Assembly (NCBI GenBank): GCA_001604275.1
Contig: LVBD01000072.1
Coordinates: forward strand, 1 to 44,463
Direction: 5' to 3'
Source: Spirochaetales bacterium Spiro_02
GTDB taxonomy: Bacteria; Spirochaetota; Spirochaetia; Sphaerochaetales; Sphaerochaetaceae
Length of the DNA: 44,463 bases
The notes below the pieces were generated by a model. The model saw only the letters and a program-made list of their open reading frames with translations, had not been told where the DNA came from and did not search any database. Position 1 is the first letter of the stretch. Every line of letters starts with the position of its first letter. Of this stretch, positions 19,323 through 28,956 are shown in pieces. Both the position numbers and the translations under genes were made by a program.

Positions 19323-20123
19323 TCATGAGAACAGCACGAGCGAAGCACCCATGACCGCCATGCCCGCCACTACTCCGCCGATGACCAGATGGTGCTCCCC
19401 GTATTCTTCTGCGGTCGGCAGCAACTCATCGAACGAAATATAGACCATGATGCCCGCCACCATGGCGAAGATCAAGCCGAACGTGACATCGTTGAATATT
19501 GACCGTAGCAGGAAGAACCCTATCAAGGCGCCGACCGGTTCCGCAAGACCGGAAAGAAAAGAATAGACGAAGGCCTTCCTTCTGTTTTTCGTCGCATAGT
19601 AGATCGGGACGGAAACGGAAATCCCTTCGGGGATGTTATGGATCGCGATAGCCACGGCGATGCTGATTCCCAGCGACGGTTCCACGAGGCCCGCCATGAA
19701 CGTTGCCAGTCCTTCCGGGAAATTATGGATCGCGATCGCGATAGCGGAGAAGACCCCGGTCCGCATCAGCTTTCCGTCTCCCGCATGCGCGTGCTCCATG
19801 TTCGATATCTCGTGAGGATTCTCTCCTTCGGGAATCAGCTTGTCGATGATCGCGATGACGGCGATGCCGACGAAGAATCCGGCAAGCGTCATCCAATACC
19901 CGGATTTCCCGGGGTAGACGGAGGACAGGGAGTCCTTTGCCTTGACGAAGATTTCTATGAGCGATACGTAGATCATCACTCCGGCGGAGAACCCGAGGCT
20001 GACGCATAGGAACTTCGGGTTGAATTTCTTGGAAAAGAAGGCCATGATCGATCCGACGCCGGTAGCGAGTCCCGCGAAGATAGTCAATGCCAAGGCGAAC
20101 AGTATGTCGTGTGTGTTGAACAT
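19323..20123 (-). CDS. ZIP-family metal ion transporter (ZupT-like)
   Basis: A 266-residue inner-membrane protein with about eight membrane helices. The ZIP signature is clear in the two metal-site helices: AIAIAIHNFPEGLATF and VAIAIHNIPEGISVSVP, both H-N-x-P-E-G. The variable loop is short with a few histidines (SNMEHAHAGDG). It would import zinc or other divalent cations. The ATG at 20123 has AAGGAG five bases before it; a GTG six bases upstream is too close to that site. It follows a DsrE-like gene on the same strand by 71 bases, probably in one transcript. Confidence 0.93.
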   Translation of the reverse strand: MFNTHDILFALALTIFAGLATGVGSIMAFFSKKFNPKFLCVSLGFSAGVMIYVSLIEIFVKAKDSLSSVYPGKSGYWMTLAGFFVGIAVIAIIDKLIPEGENPHEISNMEHAHAGDGKLMRTGVFSAIAIAIHNFPEGLATFMAGLVEPSLGISIAVAIAIHNIPEGISVSVPIYYATKNRRKAFVYSFLSGLAEPVGALIGFFLLRSIFNDVTFGLIFAMVAGIMVYISFDELLPTAEEYGEHHLVIGGVVAGMAVMGASLVLFS

Positions 20124-20194
20124 GCGCACTCCTTCGTATGCTGTTTGTTCTTCATGCCATGTAAGGGCGTTTCCGCTGCCGTCCTCTGTCCCAT

Positions 20195-24153: not shown

Positions 24154-24184
24154 CGGTACGGCTTTCTCTCCGGCCCCGATCATC

Positions 24185-24210
24185 ATCGATTAATATCGAT
24201 TATCATCGAA
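24185..24210 (+). promoter_or_regulatory. three direct repeats at 10-bp spacing before the alkaline phosphatase gene
   Basis: ATCGATTA at 24185, ATCGATTA at 24195 and ATCGAAAT at 24205 lie at exactly one helical turn from each other, 75-100 bases before the phosphatase start. Phased direct repeats are typical of OmpR/PhoB-type response-regulator sites. The sequence does not resemble the E. coli Pho box, so the link to phosphate control is inferred from position only. Confidence 0.45.
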
Positions 24211-24286: not shown

Positions 24287-26038
24287 ATGAAGAAAGCAAT
24301 GGGATTGTTCATCGCGCTTGCCGTTATGCTGTTCGCTACGCAGGTGTTCGCGGCCACGGTCTATCCGCTGGACAAGGCGACGATGCTCGCCGGAGCGAAG
24401 TTCGATTTCAAGGTTGAGTTCGATACCGTCGTGCGGCCGCAGGACGTACAGGTCACCATCAACGGCAGAAACTATGCCGAAGTGCTCGGCGCGACAGGTT
24501 CCTGGATGGAGGAGCGGCTGGCCGACGGTTCGTCCGCAACCGCGTTGATAGTCAGGGACGTGGCGCTGGCCAACGACAACTATACGGTCCGCGTCAAGAC
24601 TGCCGGAGGTACGGATCGCGTCGACTGGACGGTGTTCCCTCCCTCCGGACAAGCGAAGGCGAAGAACGTGATCGTTCTGATCGCCGACGGACTGTCCGTT
24701 GGGCATCGGACCGCAGCCCGTCTGATCTCAAAGGGCAATGTGGAGGGGACCTCGCAAGGGGTGCTGAATATGGACAGGATGGAGCGCCTTGGCATGTTGG
24801 GCACCAGTTCCGTCGATGCGATCACAGTCGATTCGGCTAATTCGATGAGCGCCTACATGACAGGGCATAAGTCCAGCATCAACGCTATCGGCGTCTACGC
24901 CGACCGGACCGAAGATCCGTTCGATGACCCGAAGCAGGAGAATATCGCAGAGTTGCTACGCAGGACGACCGGCAAGTCGATCGGCATCGTCTCCGATGCG
25001 GAACTCGAGGACGCTACTCCAGCCGCCGTCGTCGCCCATACCAGACGTCGGGCGGAGAAGGCTGAGATCGTCAAGGCGTTCGCCGCGATCGAACCCGAAG
25101 TGCTGCTCGGAGGCGGGGCCTCCTATTTCCTCCCTCAGTCGGTCACCGGCTCCAAGCGGAAGGATGATATCGATTTCATCAAGGAGTTTTCCCGAAAAGG
25201 CTATGCGGTGGTCACCAGCAATACGGAATTGACGTCCCTTGACAAGGATTCGATGCCGGAGAAGCTGCTTGGGCTGTTCCATCCCGGGAACATGGACGGT
25301 GCGCTCGACCGCCTGTTCCTGAAGAAGAACACCGTACCCAAGTATCCCGACCAGCCGGATCTCACCATGATGACGAAAGTCGCGCTGGATATCCTTTCCC
25401 GGAACGACGAAGGGTTCTTCCTGATGGTCGAGGCCGGTTCCGTCGATAAGTTCGCACATCCGATGGATTGGGAGCGTTCCGTCTACGATACGATCATGTT
25501 CGACCAAGTCGTCGGTATCGCCCAGCAATTCATGAAGAGCAATCCCGACACGCTGCTGATCGTCACCGGCGACCACACCCATTCGATCAGCGTCTACGGA
25601 ACGGTCGATGATGAGAAGGAAGTCGTCGCTTCGATCCGGGACAAGGTCGGCACCTACGCCAACGCCGGGTTCCCCAACTATGCGGACAAGAATGGGGACG
25701 GATATCCTGACGATGTCTATCCGACCAAGCGCCTGGCCGTGGGATTCGGAAATCATCCGGACTACTATGAATCGTTCGCTCCGCATCTCGAGGGGACGTT
25801 CACCCCTGCGGTCAAGGACGAGAACGGCAGGTATGTCGCCAACGAAGCATACGACAAGGACGGGGCGCTATTCATGCAGGGGAATCTCTCGTATGACGAA
25901 TCGCAGGAGGTCCATTCGGTCGATGACCAGATACTGTCGATGAGCGGTCCCGGTAGCGAACAGGTCAAGGCCTACCAGGAGAACACCGCTACGTTCCGAT
26001 ATATCGTGGAGGCATTGGGCATCGATCCCCGGTCGTAA
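24287..26038 (+). CDS. secreted alkaline phosphatase (PhoA superfamily)
   Basis: A 583-residue periplasmic or secreted phosphomonoesterase. Signal peptide: MKKAMGLFIALAVMLFATQVFA. Residues 25-118 form an Ig-like beta domain not found in E. coli PhoA. The catalytic domain has D134 (VLIADGLS), the nucleophile S183 (VDSANSMSAYMTG), E382 and D387 (VEAGSVDKFAH), D429, H430 and H432 (TGDHTHS) and H543 (EVHSVDD), so the metal sites are complete. An EF-hand-like loop DKNGDGYPDD (467-476) suggests calcium binding. The start has TGGAGG seven bases ahead of the ATG. It stands downstream of nrdG with its own upstream region. Confidence 0.93.
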   Translation: MKKAMGLFIALAVMLFATQVFAATVYPLDKATMLAGAKFDFKVEFDTVVRPQDVQVTINGRNYAEVLGATGSWMEERLADGSSATALIVRDVALANDNYTVRVKTAGGTDRVDWTVFPPSGQAKAKNVIVLIADGLSVGHRTAARLISKGNVEGTSQGVLNMDRMERLGMLGTSSVDAITVDSANSMSAYMTGHKSSINAIGVYADRTEDPFDDPKQENIAELLRRTTGKSIGIVSDAELEDATPAAVVAHTRRRAEKAEIVKAFAAIEPEVLLGGGASYFLPQSVTGSKRKDDIDFIKEFSRKGYAVVTSNTELTSLDKDSMPEKLLGLFHPGNMDGALDRLFLKKNTVPKYPDQPDLTMMTKVALDILSRNDEGFFLMVEAGSVDKFAHPMDWERSVYDTIMFDQVVGIAQQFMKSNPDTLLIVTGDHTHSISVYGTVDDEKEVVASIRDKVGTYANAGFPNYADKNGDGYPDDVYPTKRLAVGFGNHPDYYESFAPHLEGTFTPAVKDENGRYVANEAYDKDGALFMQGNLSYDESQEVHSVDDQILSMSGPGSEQVKAYQENTATFRYIVEALGIDPRS

Positions 26039-26170: not shown

Positions 26171-26593
26171 ATGAAACGGCTTGTGATACTGTCGCTGTTG
26201 CTTTTTTGTGTCGTCGATCTGTTCTCCGCCGAGCGTCTTTCGTTCGACGAGCTGTACGACTTTACCGTTCTTGGGATGGACTTCTCGACGAAGACGCGGT
26301 CCCTGGAAGGAAAAACGGTCCAGGTAGACGGATTCATGGCGCCGCCGCTCAAGGCGAAGGGAAACTTCCTCGTGCTGACGAAAAGTCCGGTCTCCCTCTG
26401 TCCGTACTGCAATTCCGACGCCGACTGGCCGGCGGACATCATCGTCGTGTATCTGTCGAAAGATGAGGTCTTCCGTCAGAGGAATCGGACGATACGCGTC
26501 ACTGGGCGGCTGGAGACCGGTTCCTTCACGGATCGGGAAACCGGGTTCGTCAGCCAGTTGCGGCTCGTGGACGCCTCATATCAGGATGTATGA
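26171..26593 (+). CDS. exported protein with a CxxC motif, partner of a metal-linked ABC system
   Basis: A 140-residue protein with signal peptide MKRLVILSLLLFCVVDLFSA. The mature part looks like an OB-fold: GKTVQVDGFMAPPLKAKGNFLVLTKSPVSLCPYCNSDADWPADIIVVYL, then IRVTGRLETG. It recalls the small DUF3299-like periplasmic proteins that accompany FtsX-type ABC transporters in some Proteobacteria. C77 and C80 (CPYC) could bind a metal or do thiol chemistry. The ATG follows AAGGAGATGGG. It overlaps or abuts the ATPase gene, and the operon order is exported protein, ATPase, permease. Confidence 0.7.
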   Translation: MKRLVILSLLLFCVVDLFSAERLSFDELYDFTVLGMDFSTKTRSLEGKTVQVDGFMAPPLKAKGNFLVLTKSPVSLCPYCNSDADWPADIIVVYLSKDEVFRQRNRTIRVTGRLETGSFTDRETGFVSQLRLVDASYQDV

Positions 26594-26594
26594 A

Positions 26595-27314
26595 ATGCCT
26601 ATGAACATGAATGGAAGGTTACGGATACGGGATCTGTCATGGAGTTTCCCTGGGACGGATGAGCCGTTCCTCATGGTTCCTGAATTGGAGATTCCCGCCT
26701 CGAGCGTCGTAGCGCTGGTCGGTCCGTCAGGATCCGGCAAGTCGACGCTGCTGTTTCTGCTTGCAGGTCTTGAGGAAGGGCTGGAAGGATCGGTCGCATG
26801 GGGGGAGCATGATGTCGCCAAAATGGGCGCCAAGCGGAAGGAGATTTGGAGACGCAAACATCTGGGGCTGGTTTTTCAGGATTTCCAGCTGATGCCCGGC
26901 ATGTCCGCTCTGGAGAACGTGCTGCTTCCACAGACTTTCGAGCGCTGGTCGGTTCCCTTTTCCATGCGCGAGCGTGCCATGTTCCTGATGCGGGAGATGG
27001 GACTGGAACGGAGGATGCGGGCGGATGCGTCGAAGCTGTCGCGTGGCGAAATGCAGCGCGTCGCGATAGCCCGCGCATTGCTCGACGAGCCGGACGTGTT
27101 GCTCGCCGACGAGCCGACGGCGAGCCTCGATGCGGAAAACGAGGAGTCTGTGGCGCGGCTGCTGCTCCGCCTTGCGAAGGAAGACGGCTGTACGCTGATC
27201 GTCTCGACTCATCATGTCGCCTTGCGGGATCAAGCGGATATCGTGCTGTCCCTCTCTCATGGGAAGATCGTACGTACGTCTCATGGAACGAAGAACCAGG
27301 AGGGGAGATCATGA
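26595..27314 (+). CDS. ABC transporter ATP-binding protein (LolD/MacB type)
   Basis: A 239-residue ATPase with Walker A GPSGSGKST (43-51), Q-loop VFQDFQLMPG, signature LSRGEMQRVAIARAL (R in place of the second G of LSGGE), Walker B VLLADEPTASLD and H-loop VSTHHVAL. The size and these motifs fit the LolD/MacB/FtsE group that works with FtsX-type permeases. I chose the ATG at 26595, just after the previous stop codon, with AGGA some 9 bases ahead. ATGs at 26586 and 26601 are alternatives. Its stop overlaps the permease start (ATGA). Confidence 0.92.
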   Translation: MPMNMNGRLRIRDLSWSFPGTDEPFLMVPELEIPASSVVALVGPSGSGKSTLLFLLAGLEEGLEGSVAWGEHDVAKMGAKRKEIWRRKHLGLVFQDFQLMPGMSALENVLLPQTFERWSVPFSMRERAMFLMREMGLERRMRADASKLSRGEMQRVAIARALLDEPDVLLADEPTASLDAENEESVARLLLRLAKEDGCTLIVSTHHVALRDQADIVLSLSHGKIVRTSHGTKNQEGRS

Positions 27315-28585
27315 GCAATCCGTTTCCCGTCATATTCGCCGATATGAAGAAGAACATCGTTTCCTCGGTCGGCGTGTTGCTGCTGTTGGCGTTCGCTTGT
27401 TCAGTACAATTCACTGCGAACGCATTCATCCGTAATCTGATCGATTCCGCGGCGTCGGCATCGGATGACTACGATCTGGTCGTCGGGGCTCCCGGAAGCA
27501 AGCTCGATCTGGTGATGGCTTCCGTCTTCCTCCGTTCCGAGGAGTCGCTTCCTCTGCTCGACGGTTCCTACATCGGACGGCTCGAGGCCGACCCTCGCGT
27601 CGCCTCGCTTTCTCCGTTGGTGTTCGCCGACAGCTACCAAGGGCTGCCAATCGTCGGCGTGGGTGAACAGTTCCCTGCGATCCGTTCCTCCCTGCGCCTG
27701 GCCGACGGAACGTGGCCAGTCGATACGTTCGACGCCGTCGTCGGGGCGGATGTTCCCCTAGCCGTGGGGGATGAGTTTCACAGTGTCCATGAGGGGGGCG
27801 GCAACGCTCATGGACATGACCATGACCATGACGCCTATACAGTGGCGGGGAAGCTTGACCGGTCCGGGACGCCATGGGATCGGGCGATCGTCGTCCCGTA
27901 TGTCAGTCTGTGGGAAGTCCATGGTTACCACGTCCATGATGAATATGGGCACGACGGGCATGACCATGTCGAAGAGGGGAGTTCCGATCTTTCCGCTGCG
28001 TTGCACGCCAGCGTCGCGGATCATGACGAAGCCGCGGGCCATGATCTTCCCGGGGTATCGGCGATTCTGGTCAAGCCGGCCGACTTTGCATCGGCGTACG
28101 CCCTCCGTTCCGAATATCGGGAGGACGGCGTCGTCAGCGTATTCCCCGGCGAGATTTTGTCCGAACTGTTCGGCATGTTCCATGACGTGCAGACGATTGC
28201 GGTCAGCCTGGGCTGGATGACGGAACTGCTCGTCGTCGCGGCGGTCCTGCTGAGCCTGCTCGCCAGCATGCCCTCGAAATACCGGTGGATCGGTCTGCTG
28301 CGGAGTCTGGGCGCTGGACGGTGGTACATATTCTTCACCGTATGGTTCCAGTCTGCGGCGGTATTTCTGATCGCAGGGCTGGGAGGTCTGGGCGTCGGGT
28401 ATCTTGCCTTCGGACGGATCGCCGCATGGGTGGGCTCCGGGACAGGAATGCGCATCGCCATGTCGGTCTCGATCCAGGACTTTCTGTTCCTGGCGATTTT
28501 CTGGGGGATCGGTCTGATCGGGTCGTTGATTCCGGCCTTCGTAGGTTTCCGGGTTTCCCCGCGGAAAGTATTGCTCGGACAGTGA
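27311..28585 (+). CDS. FtsX-type ABC permease with histidine-rich extracytoplasmic domain
   Basis: A 424-residue protein: one N-terminal helix (about 14-37), a large extracytoplasmic domain (about 45-295), then three helices (about 303-320, 345-367, 390-412), the MacB/LolC/FtsX layout. The outer domain has three histidine/aspartate clusters at 157-174, 204-219 and 232-244 (for example AHGHDHDHD and YGHDGHDHV). Such clusters are common in zinc, nickel or copper handling proteins. Together with the CxxC protein and ATPase it forms a three-gene system. Vibrio zinc-regulated zrg-type transporters have a comparable make-up, so zinc is my first guess. The direction of transport cannot be told. Confidence 0.85.
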   Translation: MSNPFPVIFADMKKNIVSSVGVLLLLAFACSVQFTANAFIRNLIDSAASASDDYDLVVGAPGSKLDLVMASVFLRSEESLPLLDGSYIGRLEADPRVASLSPLVFADSYQGLPIVGVGEQFPAIRSSLRLADGTWPVDTFDAVVGADVPLAVGDEFHSVHEGGGNAHGHDHDHDAYTVAGKLDRSGTPWDRAIVVPYVSLWEVHGYHVHDEYGHDGHDHVEEGSSDLSAALHASVADHDEAAGHDLPGVSAILVKPADFASAYALRSEYREDGVVSVFPGEILSELFGMFHDVQTIAVSLGWMTELLVVAAVLLSLLASMPSKYRWIGLLRSLGAGRWYIFFTVWFQSAAVFLIAGLGGLGVGYLAFGRIAAWVGSGTGMRIAMSVSIQDFLFLAIFWGIGLIGSLIPAFVGFRVSPRKVLLGQ

Positions 28586-28635: not shown

Positions 28636-28956
28636 ATGGACGTATCGTTTCGAGACAGAGTATATGATCTGGTGGGACGAATTCCCTCCGGCAGCGTCGC
28701 TACCTATGGGCTGGTGGCGTTTCTGGCAGGCAATCCTCGCGCGAGCAGGATCGTCGGTTCTCTTATGGCCCACGTTCCTGAAGGGCTGGGGCTTCCCTGC
28801 CATCGGGTCGTCTACCGGGACGGCTCCTTGTGCAAGGGATTTTCGTTCGGTGGTGCGGATGAAGGGTATCAGCGCTGGCTACTGGAGCAGGAAGGCGTCG
28901 TGTTCAGCGTCGACGGAAAGGTCGATATCGCCCGATGTCTGTGGGACGGCTCATGA
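28636..28956 (+). CDS. MGMT-family DNA alkylation protein, short form
   Basis: A 106-residue protein made only of the DNA-binding domain of O6-alkylguanine-DNA alkyltransferases: FRDRVYDLVGRIPSGSVATYGLVA, ASRIVGSLMAH and LPCHRVVYRDG. C55 in PCHRV is the methyl-accepting cysteine of true alkyltransferases. The short size is that of the alkyltransferase-like (ATL) proteins, which instead have PWHRV. It could be a minimal methyltransferase or an ATL-type lesion flagger. There is no good ribosome site, and a TATGAT (28624-28629) ends six bases before the ATG, which would make the mRNA nearly leaderless if that box is used. Confidence 0.85.
   Translation: MDVSFRDRVYDLVGRIPSGSVATYGLVAFLAGNPRASRIVGSLMAHVPEGLGLPCHRVVYRDGSLCKGFSFGGADEGYQRWLLEQEGVVFSVDGKVDIARCLWDGS

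Follow-up and report, generated by a model that had tools for sequence, protein, structure and literature searches.

Alkaline phosphatase (AP) is held to acquire its zinc in the periplasm unaided, and we know of no requirement of E. coli PhoA for an ABC system. For copper delivery to nitrous oxide reductase, NosDFY and NosL provide an ABC system and a small exported helper, encoded next to the periplasmic metalloenzyme that they would serve. Among ABC systems, those of type VII perform mechanical work outside the membrane, usually without moving anything across it, and a path across the membrane is usually absent from their folds (PMC12646458). Zrg-type operons, which combine an ATPase with a four-helix FtsX-type permease, are known to serve zinc homeostasis (PMC9820375, PMC11481552), and the V. 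cholerae zrg genes aid growth at low zinc (PMC9820375). The P. aeruginosa PA4063–PA4066 operon is Zur-regulated, and its authors favour pyochelin-cobalt export rather than zinc delivery (PMC11481552). Even where such an operon has been studied, then, what it does is in dispute, with a role in zinc-limited growth in V. cholerae set against an export proposal in P. aeruginosa. The zrmABCD genes were set aside as a relative, given that they form a different P. aeruginosa operon from PA4063–PA4066, namely the pseudopaline system (PMC11481552). A search of the literature returned no description of an AP operon with ABC genes of the kind reported here.

We analyzed a 44,463-nucleotide stretch of the Spirochaetales bacterium Spiro_02 genome (the window). 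Three tightly packed genes on the + strand at 26171–28585 encode an exported CPYC protein, an ABC ATPase and a four-helix permease, and the ATG of the permease gene overlaps the stop of the ATPase gene by 4 bases. The original prediction described a three-gene ABC unit placed after an AP gene. All the features of that unit are present where they were placed, and the AP gene lies upstream at 24287–26038; however, the true unit has four genes, with AP in first place, and AP is more than a neighbor. The genes at 26171–28585 close an operon in the order AP, CPxC protein, ATPase, permease, and AP stands directly upstream of the CPxC gene in all 91 loci that we compared.

These 91 loci consist of the best-matching 80 of at least 526 places confirmed by a CPxC profile scan of genome contigs, which are no random sample, and 11 others. 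The ATPase and permease genes follow the CPxC gene in 90 of them, the exception being a locus at a contig end. The loci are spread over Pseudomonadota, Campylobacterota, Desulfovibrionaceae, Deinococcota and the window's own lineage. A protein search of plasmid records found alphaproteobacterial relatives at 32–38% identity, and the order AP, small exported protein, ATPase, permease recurs in Paracoccus, Shinella, Azospirillum, Cereibacter, Deinococcus radiodurans and Allomeiothermus. A relative at 55% identity in the window's own family likewise keeps the four-gene order.

A less biased sample comprised 150 genomes from one order. A clear CPxC gene occurs in 21 of them, with AP beside it in 21 of 21; a 22nd match is weak and probably a DUF3299 protein. 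Some AP occurs in 38 of the sampled genomes, and 17 have AP without the CPxC gene. The presence of the CPxC genes thus predicts AP while the converse does not hold, which is the pattern expected of an AP accessory; the 17 genomes with AP alone also mean that some APs mature without the ABC and CPxC genes. Two AP subtypes fill the same operon slot, a long one with D153/K328 and a short one with H153/H328 (His153 and His328 as read in the two copies checked). The short subtype accounts for 9 of the 21 CPxC loci in the sampled order, and in each of the nine short-AP loci read (9/9) the CPxC, ATPase and permease genes lie downstream. Two subtypes in one slot point to function rather than to an inherited neighborhood, and the genomics shows a fixed partnership of the ABC and CPxC genes with AP. 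The stand-alone APs that were read (L198–L203 and L213–L217) include both subtypes and have no adjoining ABC genes; they could serve as ready controls when features of APs are compared.

The AP gene of the window (24287–26038, + strand) encodes a PhoA-type enzyme of 583 aa with a signal peptide and an N-terminal extension of ~100 aa (PF00245, E 8e-66). At every position that corresponds to a metal ligand or to the nucleophile in E. coli PhoA the residue is kept, the extension being the difference between the two enzymes. Across the operon APs, the nine positions that correspond to the three-metal site and the nucleophilic Ser are conserved in 90–91 of 91 sequences aligned with E. coli PhoA. 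Inspection of the sequence shows a signal peptide of its own and no lipobox. The AP is the only match found in a PF00245 search of the source genome, and E. coli scored as AP-positive in the same kind of search.

The CPYC protein (26171–26593, + strand, ATG at 26171 and stop at 26593) has 140 aa and a signal peptide. Both cysteines of its motif (26399–26410, + strand) are invariant in two alignments (A2 and A5). No Pfam match was obtained for the protein, the DUF3299 model (PF11736) matches neither it nor the other members of alignment A2, and a PDB sequence search returned nothing. Its AlphaFold model adopts an OB fold (mean pLDDT 88), as the original prediction had guessed, and the best fold match among PDB chains is PA4066 (4hsp; Z 10.1, rmsd 3.2 over 112 residues), with further OB-fold proteins at Z 8.6 or less. 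A profile comparison also aligns the CPxC family with DUF3299 (hhalign: 95.6%, 1.3e-8). Profile and predicted fold together identify the CPxC protein as a divergent relative of DUF3299, with CPxC in place of the ACIHxPxPP core motif. A crude count finds twin arginines in the CPxC signal, as in Tat export, at 68 of the 91 loci, many of them alphaproteobacterial. TIGR03943, a putative permease subunit family, matches the CPYC protein weakly and below its cut-off (E 0.04), possibly a sign that the OB-fold family extends further.

The ATPase gene (~26595–27314, + strand, with a start possibly at 26586) encodes an ABC nucleotide-binding subunit (PF00005, E 6e-32) with the P-loop GPSGSGKS, and its nearest NCBI family is LolD. 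The altered ABC signature LSRGE, which had been singled out beforehand, is present at 27036–27050 (+ strand), but it is no oddity of a single copy: the relatives mostly have LSRGE, MSRGE or SRGQ, and the variant is typical of the AP-linked clade.

The permease (27311–28585, + strand, ATG at 27311) has 424 aa arranged as TM1, an outer domain and TM2–4 (PF02687, E 4e-10). Its AlphaFold model (pLDDT 89.6) matches a non-canonical ABC protein of S. pneumoniae (5xu1_M, Z 23.4), LolE (Z 21), HrtB (Z 20) and MacB (Z 19), and the fold search also returned YbbAP and LolCDE. As modeled, the permease belongs to the type VII ABC subunits, has the MacB/LolC fold and carries its large outer domain in the segment that links TM1 to TM2. 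Fold and topology are those of MacB, LolCDE, FtsEX and YbbAP-TesA, and the ATPase is near LolD; the AP operon differs from these systems in its histidine-rich outer domain, in the separate permease and ATPase and in its AP and CPxC partners. A plain LolCDE or MacB system was rejected: the LolD and MacB equivalog cut-offs are missed, the conserved unit has no MacA-like gene and the AP has no lipobox.

The outer domain does contain the three His/Asp clusters that were originally noticed. Fifteen histidines fall within residues 157–244 (17%, versus ~2% in neighboring ATPases), so the clusters are not due to chance. Cluster 1 (27779–27832, + strand) includes the near-invariant His160 and His171, found in 51/51 AP-linked and 14/14 Zrg-like permeases (65/65 together), and cluster 2 (27920–27967, + strand) starts with His204, found in 51/51 and 13/14 (64/65). 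Cluster 3 (28004–28045, + strand) is variable, and most relatives have gaps or other residues in place of its histidines. The rest of the loop after His204 varies in length and contains histidines in 48 of the 51 AP-linked permeases; the long histidine loop is nearly absent in Deinococcota. Asp107 and Asp190 are kept in AP-linked and Zrg-like permeases alike. Homologs lacking histidines throughout the family had been named as the observation that would speak against a metal-related role, and the three histidines are present in 51 of 51 aligned AP-linked permeases, even where the long loop is missing, so that a metal-related role is not refuted on this count.

The Zrg and PA4063–PA4066 operons resemble the AP operon in having an ATPase, a four-helix FtsX-type permease with the histidine triad and an OB-fold partner of the DUF3299 type. 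The suggested comparison with Vibrio zrg genes was apt. The AP operon has AP in first place and no DUF2796 (ZrgA) gene among its four genes, its partner carries CPxC and not ACIHxPxPP, and its C-loop reads LSRGE and not LSVGQ. A quick tree separates the AP-linked permeases from the Zrg-like ones by a single branch with support 97. A Phaeobacter relative, by comparison, is a full Zrg operon with a Fur-family regulator, DUF2796, ATPase, permease and DUF3299. Searches of the source genome gave no match to DUF3299 (PF11736) and none to DUF2796, although the control for DUF2796 was also without a match; a full Zrg operon was rejected for want of either match. DUF3299 matches occur in 17 of 247 genomes of the window's phylum, largely the ones that also gave distant permease matches.

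Sites upstream of AP suggest how the operon is controlled. Of 86 proteobacterial loci, 47 have a Pho-box-like site (up to 3 mismatches) ahead of AP, mostly 57–91 bases before its start, where the remaining sequence of these loci would predict 0.9. In a non-redundant set, the sites occur in 40 of 72 loci versus 1.0 in shuffles, all of them in sense orientation. A Zur-like palindrome lies at −93 to −111 in 7 loci, all alphaproteobacterial, with 0.02 expected; the pattern used is degenerate and was widened after some of the AP sites had been seen, and it fits boxes before znuA-type genes in the same genomes. With a stricter znuA-based pattern, the counts are 2 versus 0.05 at one mismatch and 7 versus 0.6 at two. 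It would be odd for AP, a zinc enzyme, to be repressed when zinc is plentiful. The window has no Zur- or Pho-consensus site. Where the proteobacterial relatives have theirs, it has three direct repeats similar to CGATCATCATCGA with a 10-base period (24177–24209, + strand, 78–110 bases before the AP start), which differ in motif and have no second copy in the source genome. From their position, the repeats are a possible candidate operator.

In our judgment, the chances are about even that the operon encodes a zinc-handling machine dedicated to AP, which would load Zn2+ into the exported enzyme; that the metal is zinc and that it is loaded into AP are what we infer beyond the genomic partnership. 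The original prediction of a metal transporter or delivery system, possibly for zinc, gains indirect support for zinc handling from the near-invariant triad shared with Zrg, the DUF3299-related partner, the Zur-like sites and the constant PhoA-type partner. Delivery fits better than transport, since type VII folds usually work outside the membrane without a substrate crossing it. ATP-driven zinc delivery accounts most simply for the constant pairing with a zinc enzyme, the conserved histidine triad and the DUF3299-like helper. Two ATPase and two permease subunits would, as the fold implies, assemble into a type VII complex whose outer domains could collect Zn2+ at a putative three-histidine site and along the flexible histidine loop. 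In the periplasm, the OB-fold CPxC protein would pass on the metal or dock AP, and ATP binding and hydrolysis in the cytoplasm would move the outer domains and release Zn2+ into newly made AP. In this way AP could obtain its metal even at low zinc, or when it is made in bulk under phosphate starvation. Somewhat more tentatively, we propose an ATP-driven zinc insertase in this full form, a type VII ABC system that loads AP by way of a DUF3299-like helper and answers to both phosphate and zinc, with Zur possibly acting upstream of the Pho-box-like site. NosDFY and NosL offer a comparison of how such a system might work; metal and enzyme differ, and no homology is claimed.

An unlikely but credible alternative is a Zrg-type zinc importer that is co-expressed with AP, uses the CPxC protein as a helper and offsets the zinc spent on a bulk periplasmic phosphatase. 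The kinship of the permease to Zrg-like ones with the same triad, the aid that zrg genes give V. cholerae at low zinc (PMC9820375) and the Zur-like sites in some relatives would all agree with this. However, a general importer would be expected to turn up without AP as well, and in our samples the gene set always comes with one. A path through the membrane is usually missing from type VII folds (PMC12646458), and the source genome gave no ZrgA match, with the same caveat of a silent control. The operon could also be a machine that extracts a phosphorylated lipid, or another substrate lodged in the inner membrane, and hands it to AP, much as YbbAP does for TesA, a pairing of a type VII ABC system with a periplasmic hydrolase (PMC12646458). 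We consider this rather improbable: YbbAP and LolCDE are among the fold matches of the permease and Pho-box-like sites precede AP, but three near-invariant histidines, a histidine-rich loop, the Zur-like sites and the kinship to zinc-linked Zrg permeases would be left unexplained.

Two further explanations are less likely still. Outward movement of AP, a metallophore or a metal complex, as proposed for PA4064–PA4065 of the P. aeruginosa relative (PMC11481552), would suit the MacB-like fold of the permease. It is nonetheless very unlikely, in that the conserved unit contains neither a MacA-like adaptor nor a metallophore gene (an HlyD-type gene lies upstream of AP in Azospirillum only) and AP carries its own signal peptide, without a lipobox. 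We give a slimmer chance still to zinc recovery, in which the ABC system would strip zinc from AP or the periplasm as zinc falls and return it to the cell. The same parts could run in reverse, and the Zur-like sites imply that zinc shortage is involved, but sharing one operon with AP under Pho-box-like sites speaks for making AP and not for stripping it.

If AP loading is correct, the operon would be a definite candidate for a system that actively supplies an exported enzyme with zinc, apparently under phosphate and partly under zinc control. The Zrg/PA4063–PA4066 family, for which zinc import and pyochelin-cobalt export are in dispute, might then likewise manage metal outside the membrane. 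A metal other than zinc is possible in some members, since in Paracoccus liaowanqingii a gene for the copper chaperone PCu(A)C directly follows the permease gene (L039, 7222–7698).

The CPxC gene is clear in just 2 of 387 genomes of the window's phylum, which suggests that the operon was gained horizontally in this lineage; no donor is visible in the quick permease tree. Around the operon, a ZIP-family zinc transporter gene lies ~4 kb before the AP gene (19323–20129, − strand; PF02535, E 5e-34) and is the carrier that had been called ZupT-type. Directly 3′ of the permease gene, 28636–28956 encodes a short methylguanine-DNA methyltransferase domain protein (PF01035), and annotated relatives have different genes in this place. 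Locus L136 comes from a record titled Bacillus subtilis SK6B4; its operon is very like those of Brucella and Ochrobactrum, and the record is probably misnamed or contaminated.
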